Source: an uncultured Nitrosospira sp. (GTDB taxonomy: Bacteria; Nitrospirota; Nitrospiria; Nitrospirales; Nitrospiraceae). From it: a stretch of 37,487 nucleotides of DNA. The stretch covers positions 1 through 37,487 of the forward strand of contig CAADGJ010000222.1 in the NCBI GenBank assembly GCA_900696505.1, written 5' to 3'. A program made the translations under genes and the position numbers. The number at the start of each line of letters is the position of its first letter. Positions within the stretch are counted from its first letter, which is position 1. A model generated the notes under the pieces. The model saw only the letters and a list, made by a program, of their open reading frames with translations, was not told the origin of the DNA and made no database searches. Below are positions 1 to 9,903 of the stretch, in pieces.

Positions 1-410
1 CGATCCTTCAACGGAGAAGCCGGGGTGAAGTGATGGAGGCCCAGGCGCAAGCCGATCGCCTGGTGCTGGTGCAGAAATACCGGGAACAGCAAGTGGTCGT
101 GGATGTCGACAATGCCGTGTCGGCCATCGAACGGGCGAAGGAACGGGTCGCAGCGGCGGCGGAATCGCTTCGCATGGCCAAGACCTTGGAAGAAGGCGAA
201 CGTTTCCGGTTCAGCCTGGGCGCGACGAGCGTGCTGTTTGTGAACCTGCGGGAGCGGAATTCCGTCGATTCGGAGATGCAACTCGTCCGGGCCAAGGCGG
301 ATTACCAGAAGGCTCTCGCCCTCTATCAATGGGCGACGGGATCGTGGGCCAGGAGCCAGCCCTCGGCCGTTCCGGTCAATTACCGGGTCGGTGCGAGCTT
401 GTCCAAATAG
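1..410 (+). CDS. TolC-family outer membrane efflux protein, C-terminal part (5' end outside window)
   Basis: Frame is open to the window start (ILQRRSRGEVMEAQAQADRLVL...); TolC-like coiled-coil C-terminus ...LVRAKADYQKALALYQWATG. Confidence 0.8.
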   Translation, partial: ILQRRSRGEVMEAQAQADRLVLVQKYREQQVVVDVDNAVSAIERAKERVAAAAESLRMAKTLEEGERFRFSLGATSVLFVNLRERNSVDSEMQLVRAKADYQKALALYQWATGSWARSQPSAVPVNYRVGASLSK

Positions 411-542: not shown

Positions 543-2210
543 ATGTCCCAGGATCATTCCGACAACCAGAGCAATTTGTTTCAAGCGGTCGTCGGCCATC
601 TGGGCCTTCTGTTTCGTCTCGAACGGCGCATCCTCGGTCTCATCGTTTCCTATTCCATCGCCATCGGGCTTTTCTCGCTGATCGTTCCTCTCACGGTTCA
701 GGAACTCGTCAACACGTTCGCCTTCGCGCTCCAGCCCATCACCATTGTCACACTGGCCGCGGTCATGGTGGCGGGCCTGCTCTTCGTCGGCGCCTTCCGG
801 GCCCTCCAATATTATGCGGTGGAAGTCCTGGAGCGGCGCATCTTCGCCCGGGTGGCCATTGCCATGGCGCAACAATTGCCGCATTTGCGCTATCAGGGCT
901 TCAAGCCTCGATTCGCCAATTACTTCGTCGAAACCATTCTCATGCAGCGGGCCGTATCGGTGCTGCTGGTCGACTTGATCAACGTCATCGTCGGCGGGGC
1001 GGTCGGTATGACCATCCTCGTGTTCTACCACCCGTACTTCCTGTTGTTTAACGCCATCTTGCTGGTCGGGTTCAACGTGGTGTTCTTTCTCATGAGCCAT
1101 GGCGGGTTGAAGGCCGACATGGACATGTCCCACGCCAAATACGACACCCTGCACTGGTTTCAGGAAATTGCGTACAACCTGCTCCATTTCAAGTCCACCG
1201 ATAGCCAGGCGCTGCTGATCAAGAAGACGGATCAACTCCTGGACACCTATGTCGGGGTGCGTAGAACCCGCTTCGGCATTCTCATCCGGCAATATCTGGG
1301 ATCACTCGGATGGCAGGCCATCGTCCATAGCGGTCTCATCGCAACGGCTGGTTGGCTCCTCGGAATCGGCCAACTGACGCTCGGACAATTCGTCGCCGCG
1401 GAAGTCGTGGTCAGCGGCATCCTCTCAAGCTTCGACGGCGTCGTGAAGCGGATGGGGCATATCTATTATTTTCTCACCGCCTTGACCGAATTGAGCTTCC
1501 TCTTCTCGTTGCCCAAGGATCAGGACGCCGCCACGCTGTCCATTCCCTTGCCCGACCCGACGGTGCACGGCATTCGAGTCACGTGCAAAGACCTCACGTT
1601 TGCGCCAGCCGGCGGCCCGCCCGTATTTGAGCACTTCAACCTGGAAGTGACGCCCGGTGAAAAAATCGGGATCTATGCCGATACGACGATGGCCAAAACC
1701 GCGCTCGCCCGGGTGCTCGGCGGCCTCGAATCACCGACGGCCGGCGTCATCCGCTACAACGGCGTCGATCTGCGCCATCTCAACCTGGATTCCGTCAATC
1801 GCTTCAGGGGATTCATCCTGGATTCGCAACTGTCGTTGTTTGAGGGGACACTGGAAGAAAACATTCTGCTCGGGCGGGACTACATTCCCTATAGCGACGT
1901 GCGGTGGGCCCTCCGCTTCACCGAACTGGAAGAAGAAGTCGACGCCCTCCCCCATGGCTTGAAAACGCATGTGCGGTCTGCGGGTAAAATCTTCGCCCCT
2001 ACGCACATCGTGCGCATCCTGGTGGCGCGAGCGATTCTAGGACGCCCGCAGCTCCTCATTTTCGAAGGCATTCTTCACAACATGCATCCCGCAATGCGCG
2101 AGACGATTCTCCGCCGCCTATGTAGCAAAGAAGAACCCTGGTCGGTGATTTTCGTCTCGAACGATCCGAATCTCACCCCGCATGTCGACCGCCGGATCAT
2201 GCTGAACTAA
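543..2210 (+). CDS. ABC transporter, fused TMD-NBD with degenerate NBD motifs (copy 1)
   Basis: Type I exporter-like TMD then NBD (GEKIGIYADTTMAKTALARVLGGLESPTAGVIRYNGVDLR...GTLEENILLGR); start ATG at 543 inside ORF 516..2210. Confidence 0.85.
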   Translation: MSQDHSDNQSNLFQAVVGHLGLLFRLERRILGLIVSYSIAIGLFSLIVPLTVQELVNTFAFALQPITIVTLAAVMVAGLLFVGAFRALQYYAVEVLERRIFARVAIAMAQQLPHLRYQGFKPRFANYFVETILMQRAVSVLLVDLINVIVGGAVGMTILVFYHPYFLLFNAILLVGFNVVFFLMSHGGLKADMDMSHAKYDTLHWFQEIAYNLLHFKSTDSQALLIKKTDQLLDTYVGVRRTRFGILIRQYLGSLGWQAIVHSGLIATAGWLLGIGQLTLGQFVAAEVVVSGILSSFDGVVKRMGHIYYFLTALTELSFLFSLPKDQDAATLSIPLPDPTVHGIRVTCKDLTFAPAGGPPVFEHFNLEVTPGEKIGIYADTTMAKTALARVLGGLESPTAGVIRYNGVDLRHLNLDSVNRFRGFILDSQLSLFEGTLEENILLGRDYIPYSDVRWALRFTELEEEVDALPHGLKTHVRSAGKIFAPTHIVRILVARAILGRPQLLIFEGILHNMHPAMRETILRRLCSKEEPWSVIFVSNDPNLTPHVDRRIMLN

Positions 2211-2352
2211 CGGCTTGCCACACCGTCACCTAGGCTGCCGGCCTCGGGCGCTCGCTTCCTCCCCACTCGCCGACCACCTTGTTTCCCGTTCTTGACAGAG
2301 ATGCGGCATTCGCCCACACTGCGCCCCACCATCGGTCGACACGAGCCATCGC

Positions 2353-4029
2353 GTGAACCACATCGCTACCGAATCAACGATCACCACACCTTCAGCCTGG
2401 ACGATTCTTTCGCGCCTCAACCTCCTGGTCGGACTCGAGCGGCGCATTCTGGCCATCATTGCCTCTTATGCAGTCGTGATCGGTCTGTTTGCGCTGATCG
2501 TGCCGCTCACCGTGCAAGAGCTCGTGAACACCTTCGCCTTCGCCATTCAACCGATCATGATTGTGACGCTGGTCGCCATCATGTTAGGCGCGTTGTTGTT
2601 GATGGGGGCATTCCGGGTCTTGCAGGGACGCGCGGTGGAAATCCTGGTGCAGCGGATCTATACCAGGCTGGCTGTCGCCTTTACCGAAGCCCTGCCCCGG
2701 TTCCGGGAGAACGTCTTCCTTCCGCAACATACCAACACCTTCATCGAAGCAGAGCTGTTGCCCCGCGCGCTGGTCGCCATGCTGGTCGACATCATCAACG
2801 TGTTCGTGTCCGGCATGATCGGCATGACGATTCTGATCATGTACCATCCCTACTTCCTCGGCTATAACATCTTCCTGATCACCGGCTTTGCTTTTCTTCT
2901 GACCTTTTTTGGCCGCGGAGGACTCCGGATTACTCAACAAGTCTCCAACCTTCACTACCAGACGTTTCACTGGTTGCAGGACATCGGCATCAACCGGCTC
3001 CATTTCAAATCTACCGACAGCCTGCCGCTTCTGCTCAAGAAGACCGATGCGCTCGTGCAGGCCTATGTCATGGCGAGGAAGACCCGATCGGATATTCTGA
3101 CCGGGGCGCAATACAAGAGTACGGTCATCTTTCAGGCCATCGCCCATAGCAGCATGATCGGCCTCGGCGGATGGCTACTCTCCCTCGCGGACATTACCCT
3201 CGGCCAATTCGTTGCGGCGGAGGTCATTGTCGGCACCCTGCTGCTCAATCTCGACATCGTCGCCCGGCGCATGTACGCCGCCATCTATGTCGCCACATCC
3301 ATGCAGGAGCTCTCCAGGCTGTTCGAAATGCCGAAAGAGGAGGTCTCCGGTCCCATCGCAGCCGGGCTGCCGAATCCCACTCTGCAGGGAGTACGACTGA
3401 CGTGCAAAGACGTGTCCTTTGCCAGTCCTGAGGGACCGATGCTGTTCGATCATTTCAATCTGGAAGTGCTGCCGGGCGAAAAGATCAGTGTGCTCACGGG
3501 CACGAGCAAAAGCAAAACGTCCCTCGCGCTTCTCCTGGCCGGGCTCTATCATCCCACCAGCGGCGTCATCCGTTATAACGACATCGACCTGCGAGACGCG
3601 TCACTCAATTATGTGAATCGCTGCCGGGGCCTGATGCTTGATTCTCATCCTACCCTCTTCGACGGAACCCTGGAGGAAAACGTGACCCTCCAGCGTCCAT
3701 CGATTCAATTTGCCGATTTGAGCTGGGCGCTGCGATTCGTGGAACTGGAGGAGGAGATCGACGCGCTGCCCCTGGGGCTGGAAACAGTCGTGCATGGGAA
3801 CGGGGCGAACTTGAGCCGCAGCCAGGTGCTTCGCATTCTTCTCGCCAGGATGATCGTGACCCGGCCGGAATTGCTGATTTTTAACGGCAGCCTCCACAAT
3901 ATCGACCCGACCGTGCGACTGACACTCCTGCGAAGGCTCTGCGCCAAAGAGGAGCCCTGGTCCATTGTGTTCGTGTCCAATGACCCCGAAGTCGGGCAAT
4001 TGGTCGAGCGGCGCGTCATCCTCGATTGA
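2353..4029 (+). CDS. ABC transporter, fused TMD-NBD with degenerate NBD motifs (copy 2, paralogue of copy 1)
   Basis: Strong similarity along its length to 543..2210 (IVPLTVQELVNTFAFA, LHFKSTDS, TLGQFVAAEV, LLRRLCxKEEPWSxxFVSNDP). Confidence 0.85.
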   Translation: MNHIATESTITTPSAWTILSRLNLLVGLERRILAIIASYAVVIGLFALIVPLTVQELVNTFAFAIQPIMIVTLVAIMLGALLLMGAFRVLQGRAVEILVQRIYTRLAVAFTEALPRFRENVFLPQHTNTFIEAELLPRALVAMLVDIINVFVSGMIGMTILIMYHPYFLGYNIFLITGFAFLLTFFGRGGLRITQQVSNLHYQTFHWLQDIGINRLHFKSTDSLPLLLKKTDALVQAYVMARKTRSDILTGAQYKSTVIFQAIAHSSMIGLGGWLLSLADITLGQFVAAEVIVGTLLLNLDIVARRMYAAIYVATSMQELSRLFEMPKEEVSGPIAAGLPNPTLQGVRLTCKDVSFASPEGPMLFDHFNLEVLPGEKISVLTGTSKSKTSLALLLAGLYHPTSGVIRYNDIDLRDASLNYVNRCRGLMLDSHPTLFDGTLEENVTLQRPSIQFADLSWALRFVELEEEIDALPLGLETVVHGNGANLSRSQVLRILLARMIVTRPELLIFNGSLHNIDPTVRLTLLRRLCAKEEPWSIVFVSNDPEVGQLVERRVILD

Positions 4030-4108: not shown

Positions 4109-4921
4109 ATGCACATCGTTTCCGGCCCGACGAAAGGGACGTCCGTGTCGTTTGCCTCGCGTTTCAAATTGTCCTTTCCCAGTCCGAATCAATTGATCAT
4201 CAGCCTCCTGATCGCGGGACTGGGATGGATCAGCGGCCAGGCTCTGAGCCGCATCGATCAAGACCTGCGCATCATGTATACGGAATACACGTTGGGAGCC
4301 GCCGACCTCGCCCACATCTCCGCCGACGTCATCCGCTATCGCAACACCATCATCCGCTCACTGGAAGCGGAAAATCAGGCGGTCTTCGAGCGCATTACCG
4401 AATCACTTCCGGCGCAACGCGCCCGCATTCAACATGCGGTGGATCGGTATGCGGCAGCAGGCTTGCGCGTCTCCCGCAGCGGACGCAGCGAAGAAAAAGA
4501 CATTCAGGCCGTACGTGAAAGCCTGGACCAATACTTCCATGTCGCCAGTAAAACGGTCGATCTCTTGTCGCAGGAATGGAAGGCGGGAACGCCCGGCGAG
4601 GCGACAGAGCTCAGGCGCAAAGCGGAAATCCATGCCGCCGACAATGGCGGACCGAAAGTCATGCAGGTGAGTCTGGCCTTGGACCGCCTGCTGGAAACCG
4701 TCGCGGAAGTCGCCAAAGACATGCGCGACGAAGGCACGAAAACCATCCGCTCCACAAGTTATTGGATTGTGGGAGGGAGTTTTTTCATCGCGTTGCTGAA
4801 TCTGTTCCTCAGTCGAACGACCAGAGCGCCACTCTCCGCATCCAGATCTGAAGAATCCGTCCGTCCCGACTCATTGGACCTGCCTGGAGGCGGATCCAAT
4901 ACGGCACTCCGCGCGGAGTAG
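4109..4921 (+). CDS. Two-TM membrane protein with a 4-helix-bundle MCP-like sensor domain, no recognisable output domain
   Basis: N-terminal TM (LIISLLIAGLGWISGQAL), ~170 aa helical region, C-terminal TM (YWIVGGSFFIALLNLFL). Confidence 0.6.
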   Translation: MHIVSGPTKGTSVSFASRFKLSFPSPNQLIISLLIAGLGWISGQALSRIDQDLRIMYTEYTLGAADLAHISADVIRYRNTIIRSLEAENQAVFERITESLPAQRARIQHAVDRYAAAGLRVSRSGRSEEKDIQAVRESLDQYFHVASKTVDLLSQEWKAGTPGEATELRRKAEIHAADNGGPKVMQVSLALDRLLETVAEVAKDMRDEGTKTIRSTSYWIVGGSFFIALLNLFLSRTTRAPLSASRSEESVRPDSLDLPGGGSNTALRAE

Positions 4922-6682: not shown

Positions 6683-7258
6683 CTAGGCCTTGTTCCGAAG
6701 ACTCTTGGGAATGTTTTCCGTGGGGATAAACACCGCCAAGGCAATCACGCAGGTCCAACGGTTTGGCCGTCCCACTGCGGATTGTGTGATGTTGAGCGTC
6801 CGGACGATTTTTCCGCCCATCTTGAAGACCTGCTCGCGCTCTTTCCACGCCACATCCGGATCGAACTCGATACCCTGGGTGGTGGCGAGCATCTGAGCCG
6901 CCAGGTCTTCGGTGTATTCACCGGACTCTTCGTCCGTTTCACCATAGGCATGGTGCTCGGAAAGATAGCCGTACGTATCACGATCGGTTGGAATCGCTAA
7001 GCCAATCGACGCGGAGATGAGCCGGTTACGTTCGTTGGTCTCTGACCGGGCCATGACGCAAAAGGTGATCTCGCCGGGGTTCAACAATTTTTCGCCGCGT
7101 TTGCGGGGAAGGATTTTGCAGTTGGGAGGAAGAATGGACGAGACACTGACGAGGTTACAATAGGCCACGCCGGCACTACGCAAGGCCTGCTCGAACGCAG
7201 CCAGCTTTTCCTTGTGCACTCCGACGCCTCTCGTCAAAAACATGTGTGTTGGTACCAT
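6683..7258 (-). CDS. Pyruvoyl-dependent arginine decarboxylase
   Basis: PvlArgDC pattern [23 protein letters not shown]...[15 protein letters not shown] with Ser self-cleavage motif. Confidence 0.9.
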
Positions 7259-7433
7259 GTCGGTCTCCCTCTTCATCCCGCGTCGAACGCACTCCAGGTG
7301 AGTGCTCGATGAATTGTCACAAGCCCTTGGTCGCGCGCGTGATCATGCGGCGATTCGCGCGAAAGTTGTATCAAGTTTGTTCCGCATCCGCAATACGGGG
7401 GGAGGGGTTTTTTTGCCCTGCCTGCGCTTTCCT

Positions 7434-8888
7434 TTACGGGTGCCGGAGATTGATGACCAGCAACTTCGGCTCGGTCATATCCTCGATCGCATAGCGCAGA
7501 CCTTCACGCCCGATCCCGGAATCTTTGATGCCGCCGTAGGGCATGTGGTCCGCACGAAAGGTGGGAATCTCGTTCGCCAGAACTCCGCCGACCTCCAACT
7601 GCTCGAAGGCCTGAAAAATGCGCCCGATGTTGGTGGTGAAGATTCCCGCTTGCAGCCCGTAGTCCGACTCGTTGACGGCGCGCAACGCCGCCTCAAACTC
7701 ACGATAGGGCGTAATCGTCACCAGGGGGCCGAACACTTCGCGGCAGGAGACGTTCATCCCGGCAGTCACCTGGGATAAGACGGTGGGGCGTACGACCGAT
7801 CCTTCGCGCGACCCACCGGACAGCAGACGCGCGCCCTGGGTAATCGCTTCGTCAATCCAGCCCTCAATGCGTTGCGCGGCACCGGCGTCGATCAACGGAC
7901 CAACCACCGTGCGTTCGTCGCCAGGATCACCGGTTGCCAACGCTCGCACACGAGCCACGAGCTGTTCGGTAAACGACTCGGCAATGGATTCATGCACAAA
8001 GATGCGCTGAACGGAAATACAGGTCTGGCCCGCATAGGTAAAGCCGCCGGTGACGCAGCGCTGAGCGGCATACTCCAGATCCGCGTCCGGTTCGATGATC
8101 ACCGCGGCATTTCCGCCCAGTTCGAGCACGACCTTTTTCTTGCCGCACTTGGCTTTCAGCATCCATCCCACGGGTGCGCTCCCCGTAAAACTCAGGAGCT
8201 TGAATCGGGGATCGACGACTAACTGCTCCGCGAGCGTGTTGTCGCACGGCAGGATATTGAGCCCCCCCGGCGGCACACCGGCCTTCAGGAGCAGATCGCC
8301 CAGCAACAGCGCCGTCAGCGGAGTTTGGGGAGCCGGCTTGATCAAAATCGAGTTGCCCGCCGCCAACGCCGGCGCTACTTTGTGTACGACGAGATTGAGG
8401 GGAAAGTTGAATGGAGTAATCCCGAGGATCGGTCCGATGGGAAACCGTCGCGTCACGCCCCAATAGGACTCCATGCCCGGCGACCAATCCAGCGGCACCA
8501 CCTCGCCGCCGATTCGTTTGGCTTCTTCACCGGCAATCGAGAGAGTCTGGATGGCGCGACCGACTTCACGACGGGCATCCGTCAGCGGTTTGCCGGCCTC
8601 CGCCGTCATCGTACGCGCAAATTCTTCCTGCCGCGCCTGGAGTGCCTGGGCGGCGTTGGCCAGCAGCGTCGACCGCGCATAGCCGGACAAGCGACGCATG
8701 GCTGCCGCACCATCGACCGAAGACTGTATCGCCGATTCCACATCCGCCGGACTGGCCTGGCAGACATGGGCAATCGTCTCGCCTGTGTAGGGATTTCGTA
8801 CTGGGGCACCCGTCGTGGATTGAGACCAGCGGCCGCCGATTAGAAATGGACGTCCATTTTCCAACGGACCAACTCCCGGAGAGGACAC
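7434..8888 (-). CDS. NAD(P)-dependent aldehyde dehydrogenase
   Basis: ALDH motifs ITPFNFPLNLVVHKVAPALAAGN, LELGGNAAVII, GQTCISVQRI (catalytic Cys), EVFGPLV. Confidence 0.9.
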   Translation of the reverse strand: MSSPGVGPLENGRPFLIGGRWSQSTTGAPVRNPYTGETIAHVCQASPADVESAIQSSVDGAAAMRRLSGYARSTLLANAAQALQARQEEFARTMTAEAGKPLTDARREVGRAIQTLSIAGEEAKRIGGEVVPLDWSPGMESYWGVTRRFPIGPILGITPFNFPLNLVVHKVAPALAAGNSILIKPAPQTPLTALLLGDLLLKAGVPPGGLNILPCDNTLAEQLVVDPRFKLLSFTGSAPVGWMLKAKCGKKKVVLELGGNAAVIIEPDADLEYAAQRCVTGGFTYAGQTCISVQRIFVHESIAESFTEQLVARVRALATGDPGDERTVVGPLIDAGAAQRIEGWIDEAITQGARLLSGGSREGSVVRPTVLSQVTAGMNVSCREVFGPLVTITPYREFEAALRAVNESDYGLQAGIFTTNIGRIFQAFEQLEVGGVLANEIPTFRADHMPYGGIKDSGIGREGLRYAIEDMTEPKLLVINLRHP

Positions 8889-8891
8889 TCG

Positions 8892-9170
8892 CTACTGCAC
8901 GGACTCCACAGGAGGAGCCGCAGAGGCCGCCGCGCTGAGGGCCGCCTCTTCCTGCTGAGCAGCTACGGCTTTGGCGATCAACTCTTCAGTCCCCCAATCC
9001 TGCACCGCTGCCAAGGTAAACGCTTCATACGTCGAGACCCCGTGACAGGTGGGACAGGCGGGCATGGGTACCTTGCGGCAAAATGCCTCGCTCAAACAGG
9101 ACATGCACACCCACAGATCCGGCTCTCCATCCTTTGCAGGCACAGTCCAAAAAGCTTGTTTAGACCCCAT
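8892..9170 (-). CDS. Small zinc-ribbon-like protein
   Basis: CMSC...CPTC spacing; sits directly upstream of the ALDH gene on the same strand. Confidence 0.55.
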   Translation of the reverse strand: MGSKQAFWTVPAKDGEPDLWVCMSCLSEAFCRKVPMPACPTCHGVSTYEAFTLAAVQDWGTEELIAKAVAAQQEEAALSAAASAAPPVESVQ

Positions 9171-9249
9171 ATGCAGTTTCCTCTTTCGTGGCTAGACGAT
9201 GATGCTCGTCACGATATTCACCTACTGTCGTTCACGCCCATGAGCGGCG

Positions 9250-9903
9250 TTACTTCGCCTTCTCTCCCGAGGCCGCGAGCAGTTTCTCGATCTCTTCTTC
9301 AAATGCGGCAAAGGGAAAGGCTCCGGGAATCGCGAGCGCCGGATTCTGGGCCGTCGGCTGTTGCGTCGTCCGCATCAAGATGAAGCCGGGCGTGCCGTGG
9401 AATCCCCAGGCATTGGCCTCGTCCCGATCTTGGAAAATCGCCTTCATATGCGGAGCATCGCGCAGGCACTCCCGAAACTTCGATTGGTCGAGGCCGATGG
9501 CTTTGGCGTGCTGGAAATAACTATCCACATCCAACCGGCCATCAGCGGCGAAGAGACGATCATGCATCGGCCAGTAGGTGCCCTGATCTCCCGCGCAACG
9601 GGCGGCCAGAGCGGCCGTGACGCCGGGGCCCTGGTCGGCACGAGGATAATCTTTGTAGAGAAACCGCACCTTACCCGTTTCGACGTAGCGCGCGTGAATC
9701 TTCGGCCAGGTTTCCTTGAAAAATTTTAGACAGTACCCGCAGGTGAAGTCCGAATATTCGATCAGGGTGATCGGCGCATCCGCCTTCCCTCGCATCCGAT
9801 TATCGACCGCCGGCGAGCTCGCCGCCAAGGCCGAGGCCGTCGTGAGCACAAGCAGCAGCAATGGCGCGCCGAATCTGATTATCCAGCCAGTCGCGGGGCT
9901 CAT
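9250..9903 (-). CDS. DsbA-family thioredoxin-like protein
   Basis: Signal peptide; APITLIEYSDFTCGYCLKFFKETWPKI; GTPGFILMR cis-Pro region. Confidence 0.85.
   Translation of the reverse strand: MSPATGWIIRFGAPLLLLVLTTASALAASSPAVDNRMRGKADAPITLIEYSDFTCGYCLKFFKETWPKIHARYVETGKVRFLYKDYPRADQGPGVTAALAARCAGDQGTYWPMHDRLFAADGRLDVDSYFQHAKAIGLDQSKFRECLRDAPHMKAIFQDRDEANAWGFHGTPGFILMRTTQQPTAQNPALAIPGAFPFAAFEEEIEKLLAASGEKAK

Follow-up and report, generated by a model that had tools for sequence, protein, structure and literature searches.

The window, i.e. the whole 37,487-nucleotide stretch analysed here (contig CAADGJ010000222.1, Nitrospiraceae), begins with four genes on the plus strand: a truncated TolC-family gene, two ABC-exporter genes with degenerate nucleotide-binding domains (NBDs), designated pABC1 and pABC2 (pseudo-ABC), and a membrane-protein gene. 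Their coordinates and main features are as follows.

3-410, plus strand: C-terminal part of a TolC-family outer-membrane channel, cut by the contig start (Pfam OEP, E=4.5e-9)
543-2210, plus strand: pABC1, ABC-exporter membrane domain and degenerate NBD, 555 aa; alternative GTG start at 516
1131-1208, plus strand: pABC1 intracellular loop 2 with the coupling helix, residues 197-222; constraint is lost there in relatives devoid of an NBD
1401-1403, plus strand: pABC1 Glu287 in TM6, a family-specific acidic residue
1677-1700, plus strand: pABC1 degenerate Walker A, ADTTMAKT
2052-2069, plus strand: pABC1 degenerate Walker B Glu508 and catalytic-Glu position Gly509, LLIFEG
2160-2162, plus strand: pABC1 H-loop position, Asn540 instead of His
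2353-4029, plus strand: pABC2, tandem paralogue with a degenerate NBD, 558 aa; present in only some lineages
3496-3519, plus strand: pABC2 degenerate Walker A, TGTSKSKT
3871-3888, plus strand: pABC2 degenerate Walker B Asn511 and catalytic-Glu position Gly512, LLIFNG
3979-3981, plus strand: pABC2 H-loop position, Asn543 instead of His
4109-4921, plus strand: membrane protein with a four-helix-bundle sensor-like domain (Pfam 4HB_MCP_1, E=3.1e-9)

An earlier note, made from the sequence of the window, had described two tandem paralogous ABC-exporter genes behind a TolC-family gene. Both parts of this description were recovered, the former as open reading frames whose products are 53% identical, the latter as the partial gene at the contig start.

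Degenerate ATP sites in both paralogues

The motif readings of that note also held. Both Walker A sequences were found in the translations, the LSGGQ signature region reads IFAPTH in pABC1 and NLSRSQ in pABC2, the catalytic Glu that follows Walker B is replaced by Gly in both proteins, and the H-loop (FVSNDP in both) carries Asn in place of His. The Q-loop Gln is missing as well, its column holding Asp in both copies (LDSQ in pABC1, LDSHP in pABC2). Beyond these earlier readings, the Mg-binding Walker B Asp is also changed (Glu508 in pABC1, Asn511 in pABC2) and the A-loop aromatic residue is gone (Pro355 in pABC1), the Walker A Lys and Thr being the sole ATP-site residues left in the two proteins. 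Both NBDs still score above the 25-bit cut-off of the Pfam ABC_tran model (29.6 and 38.6 bits). Eight ABC exporters, four of them from the genome of the window, were included as controls in the same alignment: Walker A, the Q-loop Gln, the Walker B Asp and the catalytic Glu were intact in 8/8, and the H-loop His in 7/8, the remaining one having Gln. An alignment artefact behind the missing motifs was rejected, because these control proteins keep them in the same alignment.

Family-wide loss and purifying selection

Profile searches detected the family in 111 of 396 Nitrospirota genomes, comprising 100 genomes from the window's own family, for which 110 are listed, and 11 from a sister family. 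The same kinds of NBD substitution were found at 28 loci in other Nitrospira genomes, with Asn at the H-loop position of every pABC1 and pABC2 orthologue. We extended the motif census to 120 full-length Nitrospirota proteins, namely the window's two and 118 distinct relatives (112 proteins of the Nitrospiraceae type, i.e. the window's family, and 8 of the sister family). Gly occupies the catalytic-Glu position in 118 of them and Ser in the other 2. Not one of the 120 has the catalytic Glu, the Q-loop Gln, the H-loop His or the first Gly of Walker A. For the most part, the family is also without the three glycines of the P-loop and the aromatic residue of the A-loop. The Walker A Lys is kept in 101/112 proteins of the window's family (Arg in the other 11) and in 0/8 of the sister family, while the Walker A Thr is kept in 92/112 and the Walker B Asp in 72/112 of the Nitrospiraceae-type proteins. 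Some copies have a more complete P-loop (KNSTGKTT at L074, GYSNSGKN in Persicobacter). The retention of Lys and Thr in Nitrospiraceae suggests a residual ligand or nucleotide role.

The altered NBD is under strong purifying selection: its pairwise dN/dS ranges from 0.02 to 0.11, near the level of the membrane domain, these values being approximate since several dS exceed 1. The altered NBD is therefore maintained. One pABC1 orthologue (L021:2464-4128) contains a single in-frame stop in a draft genome, reflecting either a real loss or an assembly error.

Outside Nitrospirota, where plasmid-borne copies were sampled, pseudo-ABC relatives in an ABC-HlyD-TolC gene order were found on plasmids of Persicobacter, Aureibacter, Riemerella and many Sphingomonadales, an example being SARO_RS19820, SARO_RS19815 and SARO_RS19810 on pNL2 of Novosphingobium aromaticivorans DSM 12444. 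Every NBD read among these Bacteroidota and Sphingomonadales plasmid relatives is degenerate, each in a different way; the Riemerella copy, for instance, retains a Walker A (GxxxxGKS) and the Glu, while its Walker B Asp and its His are gone. An intact ancestor may exist in Bacteroidota chromosomes, and some Bacteroidota relatives presumably keep a fuller P-loop. In a tree built from membrane-domain columns only, the 43 family rows form one clade against the eight control exporters (support 100/100), with long branches and an unsure deep order within the family.

Homologues with canonical motifs, which according to the earlier note would have pointed to local decay, were thus absent among the family members examined. 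Its proposal of a low-ATPase or pseudo-ABC protein is strongly supported as a sequence inference, and we consider it very probable that the pseudo-ABC proteins do not hydrolyse ATP.

Relatives devoid of a nucleotide-binding domain

Three sister-family genomes (G199, G357 and G187; loci L090-L092, seen more widely as L111-L113) encode the membrane domain only. These proteins of 339-348 aa end just past the membrane domain, and their genes lie directly behind those of the adaptor and TolC, with another gene close downstream. They form a single clade nested among full-length sister-family proteins in the membrane-domain tree, and a sequencing error is unlikely because the same truncation occurs in three genomes.

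In exporters of this fold, intracellular loop 2 carries the coupling helix that docks on the NBD. Identity in this loop is 0.39 for the NBD-less proteins versus 0.71 between full-length sisters, other segments being similar, and when 273 sliding windows of 20 residues are ranked (NBD-less proteins versus sisters), the 15 with the deepest drop all start at residues 199-214. Judged by these identities, loss of the NBD is accompanied by a loss of constraint specific to the NBD-docking loop. The NBD-less membrane domains are under weaker purifying selection (omega 0.23-0.29), given which these proteins could be on their way to loss. A structural model of one of them (mean pLDDT 70) shows long helices and matches TmrAB with a TM-score of 0.82. 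In our reading of the sequences, these genomes make the best case that the NBD is dispensable to the apparatus. Since the motor is defective in all copies examined and a few species have no motor left at all, the apparatus probably works without consuming ATP.

Operon organization and genomic context

In relatives, the operon comprises genes for an HlyD-like adaptor, TolC, one or two pseudo-ABC proteins and a four-helix-bundle membrane protein, in this order; two Nitrospirota families conserve the operon with its adaptor and TolC genes. At L019 and L034, a full-length TolC orthologue lies directly upstream of pABC1. The HlyD-like adaptor, which the earlier note advised to look for upstream, was found directly upstream of TolC in relatives, and in the window's own assembly on contig C311, where it reaches the contig edge and shares 81% identity with its L034 counterpart. 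An adaptor gene at this edge and a window that starts inside TolC are what is expected for an operon cut by the assembly. An ABC exporter, an HlyD-family adaptor and a TolC-family channel, i.e. the gene set of a type I secretion system (T1SS), are hence encoded together. No intact ABC gene was found in any mapped operon, and no gene for a secreted substrate (RTX or C-terminal signal type) was recognised in the flanking ORFs read by eye.

The idea of a pair, put forward in the earlier note, is right only in part, as many lineages are single-copy (those resembling N. lenta among them) and the window's genome carries a third paralogue at a separate locus. An obligatory pABC1/pABC2 heterodimer was rejected, many operons having one copy; a homodimer must therefore be able to work. 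In Nitrospiraceae, the operon ends with the four-helix-bundle gene, whose position there is conserved (L019, L034, L116, L118, L120, L121, L122, L124 and L126); this gene was not seen in the sister family, and no signalling domain was recognised in the window's copy.

The neighbourhood of some operons includes DabA (PF10070). In the three NBD-less genomes, the operon runs on into a NuoL-like gene, a second gene without Pfam match and DabA, while DabA lies immediately upstream of the pseudo-ABC gene on the Sphingobium plasmid pHAL16 (L133), and upstream of the operon, on the same strand, in another genome (G206:C58). The other sphingomonad loci examined have no DabA next to the pseudo-ABC gene, and DabA is present somewhere in the genome in 23/23 Nitrospirota genomes checked. 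We regard a functional link between the pseudo-ABC operon and the DAB inorganic-carbon system as a lead, not as a result.

Membrane domain and fold

Among the conserved polar or charged residues of the membrane domain (Glu287, Gln250 and Gln53), Glu287 of TM6 is found in 41 of the 43 family rows (Gln in the other two), including the NBD-less proteins, and none of the eight controls has an acidic residue there. This residue is a candidate for ion coupling, selectivity or substrate contact. The full-length pABC1 model, of moderate confidence (mean pLDDT 72), matches PCAT1, TmrAB, HlyB and PrtD in Foldseek with TM-scores on the query of about 0.72-0.77. These exporter-fold matches, together with ABC_tran scores above the cut-off, place the proteins in the ABC exporter superfamily; NCBIfam type I secretion and NHLM exporter models are among the best matches, far below their cut-offs.

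Comparison with known systems

The locus resembles T1SS (HlyB-HlyD-TolC; PrtD-type) by its three-part set of an ABC membrane domain, an HlyD-like adaptor and TolC. Unlike in T1SS, however, no family member examined has a functional ATP site and three have no NBD, pABC1 is without a C39-type N-terminal domain, and the locus has no recognised substrate gene beside it. The binding and hydrolysis of ATP expected of a T1SS ABC subunit are thus not indicated by the motifs across three phyla. ABC heterodimers with one degenerate site are well known, but their other site stays canonical (PMC7756269). The pseudo-ABC proteins share with TM287/288, TmrAB, BmrCD and TAP the exporter fold and substitutions at the Walker B Glu and the H-loop, whereas here every subunit is degenerate, including the homodimer candidates of single-copy lineages, leaving no canonical ATP site in either the tandem copies or their single-copy relatives. 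CFTR (ABCC7) is ATP-gated and retains one hydrolytic site. The likeness to this channel is conceptual only, that of an ABC protein which may conduct instead of pumping, without close kinship.

Type I-like parts without an ordinary ABC ATPase have also been described at SecA_DEAD/HlyD loci, which have no ABC protein, are thought to use a second SecA and include one reported Nitrospirae member (Kamneva et al. 2015, PMC4452313). Identity with that system was rejected since the composition differs: an ABC membrane domain is retained here, and the ORFs read beside it at the mapped loci included no recognisable SecA. Tripartite systems have been reviewed in general (PMC8277102), and searches of an open-access library turned up no earlier description of the present family.

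Putative mechanism and alternative explanations

A regulated channel or tethering unit, as suggested in the earlier note, is conceivable; the data favour a function of the membrane domain that is independent of the NBD, within a tripartite envelope assembly. We see the locus as a probable, although by no means secure, ATPase-less relative of T1SS, which is its best explanation given the motifs and gene content. The specific mechanism, a conduit or anchor, has an even chance of being correct. A pseudo-ABC dimer would form the inner-membrane platform, perhaps a gated pore, of an adaptor-TolC conduit; it would be a homodimer in single-copy lineages and possibly a pABC1/pABC2 heterodimer here. The pseudo-NBDs of Nitrospiraceae would act as a cytosolic gate or assembly scaffold and might still bind nucleotide or phosphate via the retained Lys and Thr. 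Passage along this route would be passive or powered by an ion gradient, and the TM6 Glu could be the residue that confers coupling or selectivity. The four-helix-bundle protein might serve as an accessory subunit or as a sensor. A broader and more tentative proposal, on which we would place somewhat less than even confidence, is that of a widespread class of envelope-spanning, ATP-free exporters derived from ABC membrane domains, combining an ion-gradient-coupled transporter or gated channel with HlyD and TolC. Their NBD would first have turned into a pseudo-domain, which one lineage later discarded, and in some lineages these exporters may work with the DAB system.

ABC exporters are defined by ATP-driven work. 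A conserved family, spread over at least three phyla, that retains the membrane machine with its adaptor and channel partners but not the motor would imply that selection can act on the exporter membrane domain for a role of its own, which the natural NBD-less proteins would allow to be tested directly. Several members are automatically annotated as "ABC transporter ATP-binding protein", affecting counts of active transporters in Nitrospira and sphingomonads.

The main rival to an ATPase-less conduit is a non-hydrolysing nucleotide-binding gate, in which the Nitrospiraceae proteins bind ATP without hydrolysis and binding opens or closes an exporter or channel, as in channel-like ABC proteins, the loss in the sister family being secondary. 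The frequent retention of Lys, Thr and the Walker B Asp in Nitrospiraceae-type proteins, the selection acting on the NBD and the fuller P-loops of L074 and Persicobacter all speak for such a switch. We nevertheless find it rather unlikely, as the P-loop glycines and A-loop aromatic are mostly lost, the window's copies are also without the Walker B Asp, and the sister family has no Lys or no NBD at all. A slightly lower probability is given to a purely structural tether, i.e. a pseudo-ABC protein that only anchors the adaptor and TolC in the inner membrane, perhaps to hold a TolC complex together or to link it to another transporter such as the DAB system, with nothing crossing its membrane domains. 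Such a role would fit the three NBD-less genomes, whose membrane-domain gene stays with those of the adaptor and TolC next to DabA, as well as the adjoining DabA of pHAL16, but Glu287, Gln250 and Gln53 are conserved beyond the presumable needs of an anchor and most loci outside the NBD-less lineage are not next to DabA.

The known heterodimers with one degenerate site (PMC7756269) make it conceivable that the proteins are half-transporters pairing with an intact ABC subunit encoded elsewhere, and thus parts of an ordinary exporter. This is improbable: the mapped operons are without an intact ABC gene, neither tandem copy has a normal ATP site, those ABC exporters that are intact in the window's genome are distant (22-29% identity), and the NBD-less forms would leave a complex with one NBD. 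Local decay, i.e. pseudogenes being lost, could be read from the missing motifs, the in-frame stop of L021 and the split copy of L122 described below; it is already contradicted by identical losses with open frames across a whole bacterial family, by the low omega of the NBD and by the upkeep of the family in 111 of 396 Nitrospirota genomes, and we give it almost no weight.

Paralogues and variants of the locus

The third pseudo-ABC paralogue (L108:4634-6559, on G000:C31; also seen at L123 and L127) lies between a TauE-like permease gene and a family 2 glycosyltransferase gene with an LpxB-N-like gene, an order kept in other Nitrospira; neither adaptor nor TolC was recognised beside it on C31. 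At L122 (G143, about 6983-9478), one pseudo-ABC copy is split into membrane-domain and NBD frames, by a frameshift or a true split. A divergent gene for a LysR-family regulator stands ahead of the adaptor gene in several genomes of the sister family (L109, L111, L112, L113 and L115), the assignment being Pfam-tested for L111 only. In another genus of the window's family (G204, L125, 2355-10517), three tandem TolC genes are followed by the pseudo-ABC gene and then by the adaptor gene.
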